From: Chondrosia reniformis
Taxonomy: Eukaryota > Porifera > Demospongiae > Chondrillida > Chondrillidae
Length of the DNA stretch: 64,000 nt
Direction of reading: 5' to 3'
Assembly (NCBI GenBank): GCA_947172415.1
Contig: OX359198.1
Span: forward strand, 2,697,401-2,761,400
Below are positions 662 through 58,812 of this stretch, piece after piece. Under the pieces are notes generated by a model that worked only from the letters and a program-made list of their open reading frames with translations, searched no databases and was not told the origin of the DNA. Made by a program: the position numbers and the translations under genes. Each line of letters opens with the position of its first letter. Position 1 is the first letter of the stretch.

Positions 662-845
662 CTGCTAGTTGATTCTTTTTGGTCTTCTATTACTGATTTT
701 AAGCATTACTAGAAGACCATACTTCAAGAATGTATATATAGTTTAGGACCTTAGACCAAGCTACTTCATTGTATATAACAAGTTAAACGTTTCTATCATA
801 CGGATATAAAGAATTGTACAAACTTCGCATTACCCACACATCAGT

Positions 846-1493
846 TAGTCTCGCGTAGCTCAGACCGCTATCTCGCCTCCATATTTATATTATGACGTCA
901 CACGGTCGGCGAGATAGGGTCTGGTCAATTGCCTATACCATTTTTGTTCTGGCCCGAAGTGTTCCGGAAGTGGTAGGCGATGATAAACGCACTTCTAACG
1001 CATACGCTCTGATCAATCCTAACCGATGTCAGAGGGCTAATGCAAACTGTAATGCTCCCTTTTCGGGTTAATAAACGATCAAAAATAATCGGTAGTGCTG
1101 CGTAGATGACGGATTTGCCATAACCCGTCGGCAGAGAAACAAAGGTATCCTTCCCGCTTACAAAGGCCTTAAAGGCTTCGATTTGCTTGTCCTTAAAGCT
1201 CCCAACACCAAACAATTTAGCAACGTCCACAAGAATTCCCGTAAGATCACTAGATTTAGAAGTACTCATCTCGTACGTAGATCGTATATGACGATTTGCG
1301 GAGTTCACGTTACATACGCGTATCTCGTATGAATATAATTATTTCCATGGTAACTGCATATTTAATGAGCCCCCAACTTCCGGGGGCCAGAACAAAAATG
1401 GTATAGGCAATTGACCAGACCCTATCTCGCCGACCGTGTGACGTCATAATAAAAATATGGAGGCGAGATAGCGGTCTGAGCTACGCGAGACTA
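846..1493. mobile_element. DNA transposon with 110-bp TIRs and 9-bp TSD, carrying a RecQ fragment
   Basis: The terminal inverted repeats 846-955 and 1384-1493 differ at about one position in 110, so the copy is young. The ends begin TAGTCTCGCGTAG. The element is flanked by a perfect 9-bp direct repeat CACATCAGT (837-845 and 1494-1502). Each TIR folds on itself (CAGACC...CTATCTCGCC against GGCGAGATAG...GGTCTG) and contains a full TGACGTCA palindrome. The interior (minus strand) encodes a RecQ-type helicase fragment rather than a transposase. Nine-base duplications and long TIRs around a host gene piece resemble Pack-MULE elements, although Merlin also makes 8-9 bp duplications. A second member lies at 10811-11473. 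Confidence 0.85.
925..1308 (-). pseudogene. RecQ-family DNA helicase N-terminal fragment inside transposon
   Basis: The 127-codon frame contains the start of a RecQ helicase core: a motif 0-like FKDKQIEAF, the Walker A motif LPTGYGKS, and a motif Ia-like ISPLTS followed by DQS. RecQ helicases unwind DNA 3'-5' using ATP, but this piece lacks the DEAH box, motifs III-VI, RQC and HRDC, so it cannot be a working helicase. The last residues are encoded within the left TIR. It appears to be a host gene segment captured by the element, or the remnant of a helicase that belonged to the element's autonomous parent. Confidence 0.7.
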
Positions 1494-1628
1494 CACATCA
1501 GTATGGTGATATTGAAAGTAATCCTGGACCTACCTATGTTTGTGGAAAAAAACATACTTAGAAAGTACCGTATATGCCGTGCAAATTACGAAAATAAAAC
1601 GGTAAATTCATGCTTTTTAATTCTAACC

Positions 1629-2358: not shown

Positions 2359-2712
2359 TGATCCAAAACTGTCACCATTGGTGTCGTAATATTGTGATTT
2401 TAGTGTTAATTTACGTCATGGGTCTGTCATAAAAACGCTGTAACTAAATCGAGTTGTGCGTATAGGGAAACGGAAAATTTTCCTTGTCGCAGTCTTAACT
2501 GGTATATCAAAGGATCATTCGATTAAATGATAAATTATATCACTGAATTTTGTAAAGTTGTCTATACATGTTTTCAGTTTTAAAAGAATTCCAAGACGAT
2601 TTTTAGTTTAAGATGTGTGGAGTTACGTGGGTATAGTTATATGAAGGAATTGGGAGTGCTTGTTGCGATCAGTATAAGAGATGAAGGTGAGGAAATACAA
2701 GCCAGTTAAATA

Positions 2713-2781
2713 GACAAGTTTTTCGAGTTTAAAAGCTCGGGGGGCTGCCGCCCCCCGAATTAACTCGAACTACTTGGCCGC
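2713..2781 (-). repeat. tRNA-Ser-like SINE
   Basis: Read on the minus strand it begins GCGGCCAAGTAGTTCGAG and ends AAACTCGAAAAACTTGTC. The head resembles tRNA-Ser (GGCCGAGTGGTTAAGG) and the A and B promoter boxes are recognisable. The G-run in the middle has expanded. The orientation is opposite to the copy at 1629-1678. Confidence 0.6.
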
Positions 2782-2914
2782 ATCGTTGGGCTTTAATATA
2801 TATATTCTTAATCCTAACGATTGAGGACGCTTAAGTGTCCTGAACAGTATAAATAGCGACAGAAAAGCTTGGTTAACTAAAGCTTCCTGGACGCCGCCAT
2901 TTGCAAAAACGATG

Positions 2915-3025
2915 TATTGACGTATAAATTAAGTGTTTTAATAGTTGCGTATGAACTCGTATTACACATATATCGACGTATAAAATAAGTGTTATAATAG
3001 TTGCGTATGAACTCGTATTATATAT
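2915..3025. repeat. Two-copy tandem duplication, period 56 bp
   Basis: CGTATAAA(T/A)TAAGTGTT.TAATAGTTGCGTATGAACTCGTATTA occurs at 2921 and again at 2977. The copies are close to identical, so it is a recent local duplication. It abuts the following repeat. The preceding 2782-2914 shows nothing recognisable. Confidence 0.7.
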
Positions 3026-8900: not shown

Positions 8901-11900
8901 CAGCACACTTACATATATGCATCCTTAGGAAAAGTTGGTATTTTTCTTCCATATACCCAACTCCCTATGAGCTACGTATGTACATATGTATATGTGTACT
9001 TTACTTTAGTTAACTACGTATAAAAACCAACCTGTACTGATCAAGGCCAACCAAAGCCTCCTCCCTCTCTTGAGTTGTGAAAAAGAACTGACTGAGTTTT
9101 AATCTTATTATTAATGCTCCTTAAATTAATATATACAACAGATTTAACAAGTGACATACTTTATGCAGGAAAAGTAATTTAAGAGGAATAAGTATGTTCC
9201 ATTGTTTACACTATTAGTATCTGTGTATAGTATATATATTTTCTTTGCATAGTTTCTATCTGTTTATGTACGTACGTATGCCTGTGGCTGTCTGTATACA
9301 GGATTGTTACATATGGTGGATATATCATGTGGCAACTTTTATATTGTACATTGTCATGAAGCTATTATATATGTACGTATGTAAATAGGTATTTTGATTA
9401 TAATATTGTACTGAAGAGATACGTATGTGGAATACATGAGATAATGCTTTTATTTACATATGTACTTAATACATATTTAATACCTACGTAAGTGGATTTA
9501 TAGATATTTAAGAAAACACATTGCTATCTTACATATACATATACATGTACGTGTAAGAACTGAATTTTAGACTTCTGCAGCAGAAGCAGGTGGTGTTGTA
9601 CATACGTATGTACATATGTATGTGTAGTGTACGTTTCTTATAAATGGAATTATGCATATTTACATACATATGCTAATAATGTGTATTTCATTGTCAGTAT
9701 GCCTTAGGGTATTCCTTTACCTCTGCACTCCCAACCTCAGTGGCCACACCTTAGCAACCTGATTAACAAACAAGTGGTTGATAAGCACAAGTTAGGTTTG
9801 CAACTAATAAAGGTGATAGCTGTTTAACTTCCAGCACTGCTGAATTAACATATGGCTTCAATTTTGAACTTTTATAGTGTGTAACCACCACACTGTGTAT
9901 TCAATAGAGCCTGTTGTTAGGGTTGTGTTTCACAGCACACCTTGGTGATATGATTTGTATGCCATATGCCAGTATGAATATTTTTTCTCTAAAAGGCATT
10001 TATATCATTAACATTGGCCAGTAAAATTGGTATTGTATCAGAGAACTAAAAAAGGTGTATATACCTATATTCTTGTTTAGCTTACTGGAAGTATAGATTC
10101 AGATGTGCAGTTTTTCTTGTTTCACACTGCATCAATTGTAGTACTATGTACATAAGTTACACTTTTTAGTTGTATTGTTTTTAGAGTGGTTTAGTAAACA
10201 ATGTACCTGGGTACATTGTTTTTAGTTGCCTCTTATATTGTGTGTGAGCCTTTGTTAAGTACGTATATACGTATGTGCATAAGCAAGTACAAATGTGCAT
10301 ATGCTGACTATGAAAGGAATATACTTATGTACGTAGCTGAATATTATTACTACTTGCTTATGATTATGTATATTTTTGCAAACAACTCAAGTTGTAGTTT
10401 GTCCTTTCAAACTATTAATTTCATTCTGAGAGTGTTTAATTTTGATACCAATCCTAAAAATATTTAACTAAACCAAGTTTAACTATGAAAGACATTGAGT
10501 ACAACTTTTGAGGTCACATTGTTAGGTATGTATGTGATACTTCAGGCTATGGTATCAGAATGGATGTGAAAGTGACCATTTGTCTGATGATAGCAGAGTT
10601 GCTTTGTGACACTTTGTATGTTTACATAAGATATACCTTGTTGGTTAAGAAGATGTGTTACTTGATATCTGGTGCATACTTCTGTTGCTAGTTTCCATAT
10701 ATAGTAGTCACTATATTTGTCACAGTGAGGTATTTGTTAGGAGACAAAGAGTTGATTGACCTGCATGGCGTGTAAGCCTACTGGGTATGGATAACCACCC
10801 GGGTGTCTAGTAGTCTAGCGTAGCCCAGACCACTATCTCACCTCCATTTTTTATATGATGACATCACGCTTTCAGCAAGATAAGGTCTGGTGAACACTCT
10901 ATACCGTTGTTGTTCTGAGCCACCAAATGTTGGTGGCTCATTAGTATGTATACAGTTACCATGGAAATAGTGATATTCATACTGAGTGACACATTGTAAC
11001 CGGGAAAAGTGCAAAGAGCTATAAGTGGCTATATTATCTAAAAGTTGATCAATGACCAGAGACAATAGCCCATAAATCACAGACTTATTGTATCCAGTCA
11101 GCAAAGAAATGAAAGCATCTTTTCCACTAAGGAAGGTAAGTATAGCCTCTTCTTGCTTGCTTCTCTGGATACAGAAGGTTCGTGATCTATGGGCTATTGC
11201 ATCTGGACTTCGATCAACTTTTAGGTAAGATACCTTTGTATCCTGTACCATAACCTCTTATACATGTAGTTCGTTACACCTTTCCCTGGTTACAATGCAT
11301 TATTCAATGTGAATGTCATTTTTTCCATGGTAACTGCATATTAATGAGCCACCAAGTTCTGGTGGTTCAGAACAAAAACAGTATAGACTGTTCACCAGAC
11401 CCTCTCCGCCAACCCTGTGACATCATAATATAAAAAATGGAAGCAGGATAGCGGTATGGGCTTTACGAGATTAGGTGACTAGACCACAAGCCTTTGAGAT
11501 ATTGGTATCCTCTCAGATATAGCTGCAGTGTAAACCTGTAAGATATGGGTGGTGTTTGAAAGATCACTGAGTTTTATTCACTGTCGAATGTGGGTTGTAA
11601 TTCATATAACTAACAACTAATAGGTATGTACATACAATTTTCAGTATTGTTTGGATTTTCGTAATATATCTTATATTCATTGTACCTTTATCAAATGTTA
11701 CTGTACATACGTATGTAGGTTGATATCGTAAGAGATGTTATTATGGAATATCAGATGAGTTTAAGAGCCCTTGTAACATTGTTTCGGGATGAAGTGAAAC
11801 GTCCATCATTTGTTGAACAAGTAAGTTTACTACAACTATATGTGTGTAAGTGTTTCTCCACTACTCTTAGGCTTTATGTTAGTTCAAGTTCTGCTATTTG

Positions 11901-41900: not shown

Positions 41901-44900
41901 CTGGAACCTTTGTTGATATATGGCATGCAGATGCATCATCTTCAGTCTATACTAAGGTGTGAAAAGGTAATTGGTAGGCCATGTGTTCTACCTTGCAATT
42001 GGATGATCTGTATCAACTACTACTCTCTATGCAGTAGTTGAGGATTTCAAAGCCTGCAACAGTACTAGTGTGACTAAAGTCTTGTACTGTTTAAAATACT
42101 GATTATCCTAGGGGTCACTTGGATCTCTTTAAATTTGTAACTTGCACTGCATGTGTAGCTAGTACTTGATTGTAATTTTAATATTGTACAGTCACTTGGC
42201 CCTCTTAAATTTGTAACTATATATATATATATATCGGTAATTTAAGCTCTGTCTTCTCTTCTTATGTTTTTTGTTCATATTTTTACTTGCAATTGTCCAT
42301 GTTTAGGAATAAGGAGTGTTATATATTATGCATGTTTAAATACAATCAAGTACTACACAGTGCAAGTTACAAATTTATGCACGGATGCAAGTGACTCCCA
42401 AGATAATCACACTGAGGTAGATAATATAATACAGATGGAAATGACTCCCAAAATAATCACAATCAGGTATATTAAACGCTACAAGACTTTAGCCACACTG
42501 AAATTCTCAACTGCTGCATACAGAGTAGTAGTCTCTACAGATCATATAAGGTTAAACACATGGCCTTCCAATTACCTTTTCACACCTTAGTATAGACTGA
42601 AGATGATGCACCTGCATGCCATTATCAGCAAAAATTCCAGTCTCATGCAGGGGGTCTCAGCCAATAATCACCGCAAATTTGACTTGCCTTGAGTGTGAGC
42701 TAGGAGTACCGTTGGTTGCTTTCATGCATTCACATAAACAACAGGGTGAGAGACAATTTGGTAACTTGCACACAAGGGACATGGTTCATGAAATAAATTA
42801 AAGGCCCCAGCCTTTATGTCCCTTGTGTGCAAGTTACCAAATTTTCTCTCTCTTCTCTCTTCTTTCTTATGCTGTCTTTCAAGCCTGCGCAGACATTTTT
42901 CCTCTTCCTTCTGTACTCATTCTTGCTTTTTTGCTTTCAACTCTTCTAAAATTCAGTGTCAGTAATACATTTTGCCTTCGAATTAACAGCCTGCCTCCTC
43001 TTTGTGGTGTTTTTGGTTTAGGTAGTGAGAGTATATCACTAAGTATGCTGCTTTTCGTGCTAATACTACCACGATGTGTGGAACACAATGATTTACCTGC
43101 AAAAAAGGACACTAACTGTATGACTAATATTTTGAGCAAGACAAAAGCTTATATAGTTCATTTACATGCATGCATATTTATTCAGGTGTGCATGGTCAAA
43201 AATATTAATGTACATGTACTTGCTGCTTGCATTACTATTCTGATGGCTGTCACCACTACAAGTGGAGGAGACATCTCCTGTCATATGGCTCAGTGATTTG
43301 ATGTTTTCAGACTCAGGGTGATGACGACGACGAAGCCAAGTAGCATACTCTTCATCATCTAAATCATAACCCTCTTGGTAACACTTCTGAAAGAGGGATT
43401 CACGATCAGGATCAATATCATGAGATACATGTTTCTGTGACTCCAATGATGACATACTAACACTATCTGATTTTTCCATCAAACGAACAGCTTTTGATGG
43501 TGCAATTTGACAATCGGTGACTTCTCCTGGATTCAAAGGATACACACCACACTTCTTAAACCCTGCCATTATGTTGACTGGAGTGACTGACTGAGGCCAT
43601 GCGACTGTAAGAAGAGAGGTAATGACTTCTGTTGTGATTACTCTTCCTGTATGATCAGTCATGTACTTCTTGCATGCTTTGTAGTATTTAGCCTTTACAG
43701 ACTTAAAACCCCAACATCTATTGGCTGCAGAATATGGGTTGTATGGGTAGGGAGGCAGAGCATGTGGACGTCATTACTTCTGGCCAGTTCTATTACCTCA
43801 ATTGAAACATGTGAGGCATGGCCATCAAGAAGCAACAAAACAGGCCTAGATGGTGGGATTGTTTTCACAAAAAATTCAAACCACTTAGAGAACAGATCAC
43901 TATTGACCCAGCCATTGTCGCTGCAGTGAAAGGAAGTACCAGGCACTGCACCAACCTTTAGGTTGTCTGTAATTTGTTTTCTTGGAAAAATCATAAATGG
44001 TGGCAAAGCATACCCAGAAGCTGAAACGCAGGTCAGTATTGTGTGAGTTTTCCTTTCTCAGCTGAGGTAATGTCCCACACATTTTGCCACCCTAATTGAG
44101 TCAGCACCCTTCCAGGCTTATGAACAATTGAAAGCCCTGTCTCATCCATGTTGAATATCTGCATGGGTTTGTTGAGTAGGTTTAACTTTGTACATATAGC
44201 TCCCAGCTTGGAGAAGTAATCACTAACTATCTCTTCACTTGCACAAGCTGCAACAGAGTGTGGGAGTGACTGAGCTAATCTTAAAGTAAGATATGCATGA
44301 TGAGATCTGAACCCGCCAAACCATGCAGGCCCAGTTGCTCCCTTTGTAAAGGGCTGCTTCCTGCCTGAACTCTCTGCTATTTTGAAAGCTGTCAGCATCA
44401 CATCATCCCGCAAAAGGCCAAACCCCATGTCAGCCATTTTATTGCAGTAAGAAGCTAACTGTTCCTCTTCTTCATCTGTTAGCACTGTTGGAGGGCCAAG
44501 CCTACAATTTATGCTTACATCATGATTTACTCTCCGTCTCAGACTCAAATATGGTATTTTGTAAAGCCTAGAAGCCTCTCTGATTCCCATTCCAACCTCT
44601 ATATTCTTTAGAGCTGTAGCCATACTCTCCTTAGACGAATGTTGACGTTTCGTGACGTGAGGCTTGGATTGTGCCATTATCTGCAAAAAGCATGTACCCA
44701 TTACATAGTTTGCCAAATGTATGAAGATAAAAATCTAGATAAAAGGCTAGTCAGCTCCTTTAAAGCAAAGTGACTCATTTTCAGGGAATAGCGGGTTACT
44801 CGGGTCTCACCTGGATGAATCTGAAGTGGACACATGCCGAAAAATTAACAGTAGAAATCCTAGTCCAAAGTTGAAGTAGGTATGTTGAAAATCTAAAAAT

Positions 44901-56013: not shown

Positions 56014-58812
56014 CGGTGCACCCAACCGTAAACTTCCTAAAAATATTTTAACAATTTTATAGTACTATATTTTCCTAGGTTACCATATATTAAAATATAG
56101 CTTACAATAGCATTTGTTTAGAGATCGAAAAATCGACTCTATCTGCTCAAATTTTATCCGTTGCTATGAAGTACCCGATTAGTTGTCTAGTTCAAGTCAC
56201 ATGACACACGTTACTAGGCGTTATCACGCAGTCAGGAATGTGTTAACGCATTGCTATAGTACGTAGTATAAACAAATAAATTTATCTCAATTCGCTGATT
56301 ACTGCTTTGGAGCAGTAATGCCAAGAAAGAAGAGAAGATCGATTCAACTAAAGGATGCCAGACAAGCCAAACAATCTTGCACAGGTTTGGATGAAAATCG
56401 TTCACAATCGGAGGAAGAAAACGATGCCGATTTTGACGGGAATCAAGACGACGAAATCGTTCTTCACGAGATGAACATTACTCCTCAGCGCACAGAATCT
56501 TGGGAAGAGCATTCCAGTGAAAATCGCCCTCAAATTGAGCCAGAAGTTAGTGAATCCGAAAGTCGCCTAGAAGAAGAAAAGGCCAACATCTAGTAATCAG
56601 CCTGTACCTAATACAACAGAGGAAATGATCAGGGATTGGGCTACTTCATTGGATCGAAATGACAACATGACTGTTGCAATTTGTATTCAGCATGTATTAA
56701 CAATGTATGGAGGGCTTAAGAGAGCAGGAGATGTACTGGGGTACTCAGACAGGACTGTGAGGGAATGGAGACTCAGTCTCACAGAACAGGGATTTCCAGA
56801 TAGCTACCAGGGTAAGTATCAAAGAATACTTCTATGGAGTGATGAAGAGCTTAACCAGAAGGCCACTGAATTCATTCGCACAAATGGAAAGGCAAAAGGC
56901 AAACCCAATTTGACCACTCTTACTTTTTGTGAGTGGGTTAATAGTGACCTGTTGCCCTTCTCCAGTCTGGAGCCACATTACCCTCGAAAGGTTGGCGTGG
57001 AGACTTGTCGCAGATGGATGCATGAATTAAGGTTTGAAATAGTTGATGGAAGGAAGGGGATTTATATTGATGGGCATGAGCGCAAGGATGTGGTAGAGAG
57101 TCGACAAAAGTTTTTTCGTAAGATGATAGTCTTGGGTTTCATCATCAAGAGGAAGCAGAAAAGTCTAAATTAGGATTTCCTGAAGACATTGAATCACCAC
57201 CTTTGGAAACCATTAGCAACACAGTCTTCATTTTCCACGACGAGTCAACCTTTAATGCTAATGAGAATCAAGGTAAATTTTGGGGTGATAGTAGTAGCAA
57301 TTTTATAAAGACTAAGTCCAGAGGGTCTGGTATTAATGTTACTGATTTTATTGAAGAGCATGGGGGGTTCCTAAAGCTTACTATGGAGGAGTATGATCAG
57401 GCTAAGCAGTCCAATCCTAATATTAAATTAGTTGCCAGGACACTTTTAGAGTATGGAGAAAATAGAGATGGGTTTTGGACATCCGATAAATTTTCAAAGC
57501 AAATTCATGAAGCCATAGATATGGCAGAGTATAAGTATCCAAGACAGAGGGGGTATAAGCTGGTGTGGTTGTTTGACCACAGTGGTTGCCACACAGCAAT
57601 GGGTGATGATGCCTTAGTGGCCAAGAGGATGAATTTAGGACCTGGGGGTAAGCAGCCTGCAATGAGGGACACTATTTCGAATGGCCAGGTACAAAAGTTA
57701 GTTGATGAGAGTGGAAGACCTATAGGAGCCCGAGCCTTGCTACAAAAGAGAGGAGTTGATACTAAGGGGTTGAAGTTATCTTTGGGATGGTACATCCCAA
57801 AGATAAGTTCGACGCAGTTATAAGGAATCCTTATTCTATTAGGGTTGAAGTTAGATAACATGCTTGATATTATTAGCAAGTTTCCCGATTTTGCTGGGGA
57901 AAAGTGCCGGTTAGAGCATATACTAAATAATCGTGGTCACGTGTGCATATTTATTCCTAAGTTGCATTGTGAACTCAACCCCATTGAACGTTGCTGGTCA
58001 CAAAGTAAGAGGTACACAAGGGCTTATTGCAATTATACTATAATGGGCCTCAGAAAGACCATTCCAAAGGCCTTAGAAAGCATTATCCTAGACAACATTA
58101 GGAATTATTTTGACCGAGTTAAGCGATACATGTATGGATATTTAGAGGGTCTTCAGGCTGGTACAGAACTTGAACTTAAGGCAACAGAGTTTAAGAAAAC
58201 TTATAGGTCCCATAGGAGGGTTGGTATTCACTCTTAGTTTTTTTAAGTTAAAATATATTTTTTGTAATTAACTAACCATTGTTTACATTAAAAACCACAA
58301 ACAATTTTTTATATATTTTATTTACATTGTGTTTTAAAACTTAGGACGTTTTTCTTTATTTTGGCTCTGTAACTTTGTAGAGGAATCTTTTAGCTATATT
58401 GAACAATGATATCTAATTATTTAAGTGCATTTTCATAGTTCTGAAAATTTTCCAAGAACCCCATATTGTTCTTACAGTGAAAGGAATATCTTCAGAATAG
58501 CACAATGAATCGAAAAAAGCCTCTGTAATTTTATAGGTATTGTTATGGGCAATTGATATATAAAATGATTCTGTTTATATTATAAACAACGCGGTAGTTG
58601 AAATATAAAATACGAAAATGGCCGTTAACTGTATTCAGGGAGATCGCTCTTGAAGATGGTTTATGGTAGCCTGACCAATCGATTTCCACCGTGATGTAGA
58701 TATACTAAAGCTTCTTCGCTGTAAGTTTCAAATCTGTATCTTATTTCTTTCTCGAATTATAGCCACAAAGACGTTGGCGGCCATTTTAGGAAGTTTATGG
58801 TTGGGTGCACGG
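56014..58812 (+). mobile_element. IS630/Tc1-like DNA transposon, 2.8 kb
   Basis: Inverted ends CGGTGCACCCAACCGTAAAC (56014) and GTTTATGGTTGGGTGCACGG (ending 58812) are followed by CTTCCTAAAA / TTTTAGGAAG. TA borders both ends (56012-56013, 58813-58814). It carries one transposase gene and is inserted in the uncharacterised element. Confidence 0.9.
56318..58237 (+). pseudogene. DD-E transposase of the IS630/Tc1-mariner group, three frameshifts
   Basis: Open segments run 56318-56593 (basic then acidic N-terminus), 56625-57173 (helix-turn-helix: GGLKRAGDVLGYSDRTVREW), 57203-57823 and 57845-58237. The catalytic core shows FIFHDESTFNANENQ (first Asp), LVWLFDHSGCH (second Asp), a Gly/Met stretch MNLGPGGKQPAMRDT, and FIPKLHCELNPIERCW (Glu). 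Thus the DDE residues are intact, but frame changes near 56585, 57130 and 57790 break the protein. The HCELNPIE form is typical of a lineage shared by fungi and animals (family knowledge). Close to 600 residues in all. Confidence 0.85.

Follow-up and report, generated by a model that had tools for sequence, protein, structure and literature searches.

The window analysed, 64,000 nucleotides of the sponge Chondrosia reniformis (contig OX359198.1, positions 2,697,401 to 2,761,400 of the forward strand), contains at positions 846-1493 a 648-bp element made of two inverted arms and bounded by a 9-bp flanking duplication (Table 1). The arms, which are separated by 428 nt, are 99% complementary, with a mismatch at 1 of the 110 bases, and the flanks, when compared over lengths of 3 to 12, match exactly at 9 alone. 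The near-identical terminal inverted repeats (TIRs) and the perfect target duplication described in an earlier note on this DNA are thus confirmed, as is its statement that the TIRs fold on themselves: the left TIR strand has a DNA minimum folding energy of -17.2 kcal/mol (z = -2.89), a value reached by 3 of 200 shuffled sequences. An Rfam search of the window returned 0 matches. As the note had also stated, the interior encodes the start of a RecQ helicase only. This fragment matches the DEAD profile PF00270 (E = 7.4e-8), its best matches among solved structures are the Bloom helicase (E = 2.6e-7) and RECQ5, and it contains the motifs GYGKS (Walker A) and SPL (motif Ia), whose names were assigned by eye. 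The stretch at 956-1007 is kept in other deletion derivatives, which then continue differently.

Table 1. Features of the 648-bp element and of a related element in the same window (positions of the window).
Feature	Position	Strand	Description
Left target site duplication	837..845	+	CACATCAGT; identical to 1494-1502
Left TIR	846..955	+	110 bp; starts TAGTCTCGCG
Hairpin in left TIR	861..923	+	Self-complementary, 16-bp stem
Remnant of the parent's opposite (transposase-side) end	956..1007	+	Runs to the internal-deletion junction at ~1006-1008
RecQ-type helicase start, first ~85 codons	~1008..1269	-	ATG at 1269-1267
Leader, right TIR to helicase start	1270..1383	-	From sequence
Right TIR	1384..1493	-	110 bp
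Mirror-image hairpin in right TIR	1416..1478	-	Deduced as the complement of 861-923, not from its own fold
Right target site duplication	1494..1502	+	9 bp, CACATCAGT
Second related element	10811..11473	+	663 bp; flanks GGTGTCTAG / GGTGACTAG, one mismatch
RecQ fragment in second element	11039-11164	-	Same kind as in the window copy

The genome (117,379,552 bases in 15 contigs) was searched for further copies; since these searches scored the best candidates only, the copy numbers given here are lower bounds. The full 648 positions were matched at no fewer than 7 other places with 95-99% identity (best 40 of 157 candidates scored), and, when up to 2 mismatches were allowed, 111 occurrences of the 21-base terminus were counted genome-wide, as compared to 0 for a reversed-pattern control. 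Most elements whose ends were set have the terminal bases TAGTCT...AGACTA. Among 21 elements with set ends, 6 of which come from a sister family (whose TIR matches that of the window family at 90% identity across 91 bases at one side and at 86% across 104 bases at the other), 18 are flanked by exact 9-bp duplications, 2 by duplications with one mismatch and 1 by a duplication with two, and the duplicated sequence varies from element to element. Copies with 9-bp duplications, for which the earlier note proposed to search, are present in the genome. This set of 21 leaves out the window copy, retrieved again as L001; repeat fetches of included places (L009, L010, L012-L017, L026, L028, L033); loci where a single TIR was found (L022, L024, L049), where the arms were nested (L025, L030) or where the ends were unpaired (L027, L040); and loci without a match to the window-family TIR (L029, L031, L036-L039, L044-L048). 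Two of the last group (L039 4671-5312 and L044 4704-5351) represent further families with 9-bp duplications (GGGATAGCT and AGAGTACGG, respectively), RecQ starts and termini that both start with TAGTCTCGT; they do not constitute independent support because the filter by which they were selected included the duplication.

The genome also contains mini-elements of 63-146 bp, barely more than one TIR palindrome. Eleven were paired by eye from 100 listed matches out of the 111 terminus matches, some short pairs being left unfetched: 5 have exact 9-bp duplications, 3 have one mismatch and 3 have at least four. Between the window copy and its nearest sibling, 3 of 638 aligned bases differ, and there is a 10-bp deletion. 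Along with the single difference between its TIRs, this supports, in relative terms only, the recent activity claimed in the earlier note: the window copy appears to have moved relatively recently. In one sibling (L011 1324-2402, i.e. C6:3320817-3321895), several hundred extra bases are inserted close to the inner end of one of the TIRs; visual inspection showed a similar GGGGCTGCC-rich stretch at about 2730-2830 of the window.

The earlier note asked whether the 9-mers are duplicated relative to an empty site; empty sites turned up for two siblings, and no exact one for the window copy. For 13 sibling insertions, the two flanks were joined through a single 9-mer and used to search the genome (best 40 of 1238 candidates scored). 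At least 2 of the 13 have uninterrupted empty sites: that of L011 is present at 7 places (162 bases unbroken, 96-99%), and that of L003 at 3 places, which span the junction at 88-92% identity. For each of the other 11, the matches listed comprised its own two halves only. In the case of the window copy, the genome search found no exact empty site. A paralog at C8:1326500-1326760 has both of its flanks in order (54 bases at 89% and 73 bases at 82%) and lacks the element; it does not qualify as an exact empty site because 74 bp of other sequence lie at the insertion point. Next to the insertion, at 1508-1531 of the window, lies the sequence DIESNPGP, which resembles a 2A ribosome-skipping motif, with TYVCGKKHT after it. 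This motif and the C8 paralog suggest an insertion into a decayed retroelement-like repeat.

The earlier note left two origins open for the helicase piece, a host gene captured in the style of a Pack-MULE or the remnant of an autonomous helicase-bearing parent. Comparison of 14 copies revealed five classes of internal-deletion junctions (7, 1, 2, 3 and 1 copies, the window copy being in the first). All five classes break inside one helicase gene, and the sequence rejoined to it is the same opposite end in 13 of the 14 copies and a recognisably similar end in L018, the most diverged one. L018 retains a longer, disabled stretch of the helicase gene past the window's junction, and L049 (C3:5387000-5392400) extends this gene on the minus strand, with pieces that correspond, by eye, to later RecQ motifs. 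This pattern is that of repeated internal deletion of one parent and not of a single gene capture, and the fragment is more likely the element's own gene than a captured host gene. Of the two origins, the remnant is thus upheld by the five junctions, by L049 with its DUF6589 gene and by the RecQ-DUF6589 linkage described below; the captured host gene is not supported. Identity alone is compatible with a host origin: the fragment is 44% identical to the host Bloom-like helicase (L046) over 68 aligned residues, as compared to 38-58% for the element helicases over short alignments (54% for L029 and 58% for L038 (over 40 residues), both DUF6589-linked; 43% for L032 of the sister family; 38% for L045, also DUF6589-linked), and a helicase tree on such short fragments is weakly supported. 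Because identity is insufficient, the argument for an element-own helicase is built on the junctions, the longer copies and the linkage.

L049 also provides a candidate for the second gene of the parent. Convergent with the helicase gene, on the plus strand (2710-3021), lies a match to DUF6589 (PF20231; E = 1.4e-9, above the cut-off), which is decayed (2 TGA) and covers profile positions 307-410 of 410 only. The right TIR of L049 is that of the window family (97% over 70 bases); its left end was looked for and not located. The earlier note had proposed that a longer copy with either a MULE or Merlin transposase or a full helicase plus a nuclease would settle the type: L049 is a longer, decayed relative with more of the RecQ gene, and its second gene encodes part of a DUF6589 protein, a combination that points away from the Pack-MULE reading. 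A 3,607-bp copy of the sister family (L043), flanked by an exact 9-bp duplication, has a RecQ start at one end and, at the other, the convergent start of a zinc-finger-like protein (zf-AD E = 2.5e-4, below the cut-off), the next exon of which matches, besides itself, 2 places, both at DUF6589 loci. Genome-wide, 4 of the 6 DUF6589 loci (8 hits) have a RecQ hit no more than 6 kb away, as compared to 0.03 expected, with 43 RecQ loci obtained from the 82-residue fragment as the only query; the 6-kb limit was chosen once the distances were known, and a limit of 5 kb gives 3 of 6. The loci on C2 (RecQ-linked) and at C1:4714722 (unlinked) score below the Pfam cut-off; among the four above it, three are RecQ-linked. 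The two genes are convergent at C2 and C3 and in the same direction at C14, their order at C5 being unclear. The DUF6589 loci include C14:2988650-2992518 and C3:5389709-5390020. Paired ends were not found around L029, L038 or L045, nor was an intact autonomous copy of the window family found in the genome search.

The MULE or Merlin type suggested in the earlier note did not withstand this comparison. MULEs have long TIRs and duplications of about 9 bp, which the 110-bp TIRs and 9-bp duplications found here resemble; MULE transposase domains (PF10551) are present in the genome (8 hits), and the host Bloom-like helicase is at least as close to the fragment as L032 and closer than L045, so that a MULE could have picked up a piece of a host RecQ gene and multiplied it. 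However, none of the 8 MULE loci has a RecQ hit within 6 kb, other linked helicases (L029, L038) are closer to the fragment than the host one, and several families with related termini carry the RecQ start, with L049 combining RecQ and DUF6589. The MULE or Pack-MULE type was rejected on the basis of the 0/8 count and of a helicase that appears to be the element's own, and a capture of this kind is highly improbable. The same low probability attaches to a non-autonomous Merlin (IS1595-type) element that gained a helicase piece. Merlin duplications are 8-9 bp long, IS1595-type domains (PF12762) are common in the genome (92 hits) and one of them, on C5, is separated from a RecQ hit by 1.3 kb and shares this stretch with a DUF6589 locus; however, 0 of the 92 hits are inside an element with both ends set, and of 87 IS1595 loci just 1 has a RecQ hit within 6 kb, with 0.38 expected, a count on which we rejected the Merlin type.

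Other transposase-related observations were made in passing. Three equal-scoring IS1595-type hits, about 11.55 kb apart at C6:3252244-3275771, suggest a tandem duplication. The window itself has, at 44033-44716 on the minus strand, an ORF with an HTH_psq domain (E = 1.1e-6), perhaps a pogo-like transposase, and at 56625-57823 on the plus strand two adjoining ORFs, perhaps another transposase, the second of which matches DDE_3 below the cut-off (E = 0.0046).

Taken together, the junctions, L049 and the RecQ-DUF6589 linkage therefore point to a non-autonomous derivative of a RecQ+DUF6589 transposon. The window element is very probably a non-autonomous cut-and-paste transposon that arose by internal deletion from such a parent and is a probable AcademH, a lineage of the Academ superfamily reportedly described by Kojima in 2020; taken by itself, the AcademH label is likely, with a lesser degree of confidence. 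The parent would have had a transposase-like gene, with the zinc-finger-like start and the DUF6589 region, and a RecQ-type helicase gene near the other TIR. Internal deletion would have removed nearly all of the former and most of the latter, so that, besides the two TIRs, about 50 bp remained on one side and the beginning of the helicase gene on the other. Proteins supplied in trans by a full element would then recognise these TIRs, and the derivative would be cut out and inserted at a 9-bp staggered target. In this scheme the DUF6589 protein is a putative transposase, and the helicase may assist transposition.

The retained helicase start might have been kept by selection, for instance if it repressed the full element in a dominant-negative way. 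Several families do have derivatives of about 620-750 bp that keep the RecQ start, a retention that is over-counted because most families were found by RecQ search. By contrast, the unique changes in the nine closest copies are 1 synonymous and 10 nonsynonymous, as against the 24-28.5% synonymous changes that neutrality predicts for the 82-codon frame; two of the nine are frameshifted and one has its Walker A lysine changed. Over all 14 copies, the counts are 12 and 24 (P = 0.58 or 0.24, depending on the mutation model), with 10 of the 12 synonymous changes held by the diverged L018. Moreover, the hairpin-only elements of 63-146 bp transposed as well, as recognized by the exact 9-bp duplications of 5 of the 11, and among 9 terminus pairs of the L044 family, matched up by eye, 6 have a spacing of 397-475 bp and are absent from the 45 RecQ hits. 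A selected repressor was rejected on account of the substitution counts, the frameshifts and the transposed hairpin-only elements, and we consider it very unlikely. As the nine closest copies show no sign of purifying selection, the fragment is probably a passenger in recent copies.

These results link, in one genome, DUF6589 (a protein of unknown function), a RecQ helicase and 9-bp-duplicating TIRs, which makes a transposase role of DUF6589 testable. Our literature search found no report of DUF6589 together with a transposon and, in its listings, no account of these families in Chondrosia reniformis; transposon libraries, e.g. Repbase, may catalogue them. The results also provide a clear case of a helicase that looks captured and, as several deletion junctions indicate, more likely belongs to the element itself. 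If confirmed as AcademH, the family would add a sponge with many recent non-autonomous copies.

The window element cleanly illustrates a type of transposon that is already known and is not new in principle. Internally deleted derivatives and MITEs share TIRs and include independent internal deletions and tiny TIR-only forms. The present elements likewise have common TIRs, several independent internal deletions and tiny TIR-only forms; unlike MITEs generally, the smallest of their forms observed are single palindromes, because the TIR itself holds a hairpin. With MULEs and Pack-MULEs they have in common the long TIRs and the 9-bp duplication, and differ from them in that the MULE domain is absent within 6 kb of RecQ hits. 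KolobokH is, like the parent proposed here, a DNA transposon with a RecQ helicase, found in fungi; however, Kolobok makes 4-bp TTAA duplications according to the relevant section of PMC9587614, as against 9 bp of varied sequence here, and was rejected by this rule. In a passage of PMC10799480, DEAD and Helicase_C domains are assigned to AcademH, KolobokH or Helitron as a group. A less favoured reading, unlikely though deserving consideration, holds that the RecQ+DUF6589 transposon is a separate superfamily, not AcademH, which gained RecQ independently, as KolobokH did. The Kolobok lineages that also have RecQ, as the section cited of PMC9587614 describes them, indicate that helicase acquisition is recurrent, and the Academ identity of DUF6589 is putative; however, a helicase along with a 9-bp duplication is the combination that PMC10045372 reports for AcademH where it treats this lineage. 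Somewhat less likely again is a separate superfamily in which DUF6589 is the transposase, RecQ is encoded by a gene of its own, and the combination of a helicase with 9-bp duplications was reached independently of AcademH. As for the AcademH assignment that we prefer, the passage of PMC10045372 on duplications gives 9 or 10 bp for AcademH and 3 or 4 for AcademX, and ties this difference to helicase versus nuclease. The window family resembles AcademH in its 9-bp duplications, which fall within the 9-10 bp given there, and in having a helicase as part of the element (a RecQ-type fragment whose gene continues in longer copies); it differs from AcademH in that the window copy is non-autonomous, and may differ in that the helicase and the DUF6589 protein of its relatives look like separate genes.
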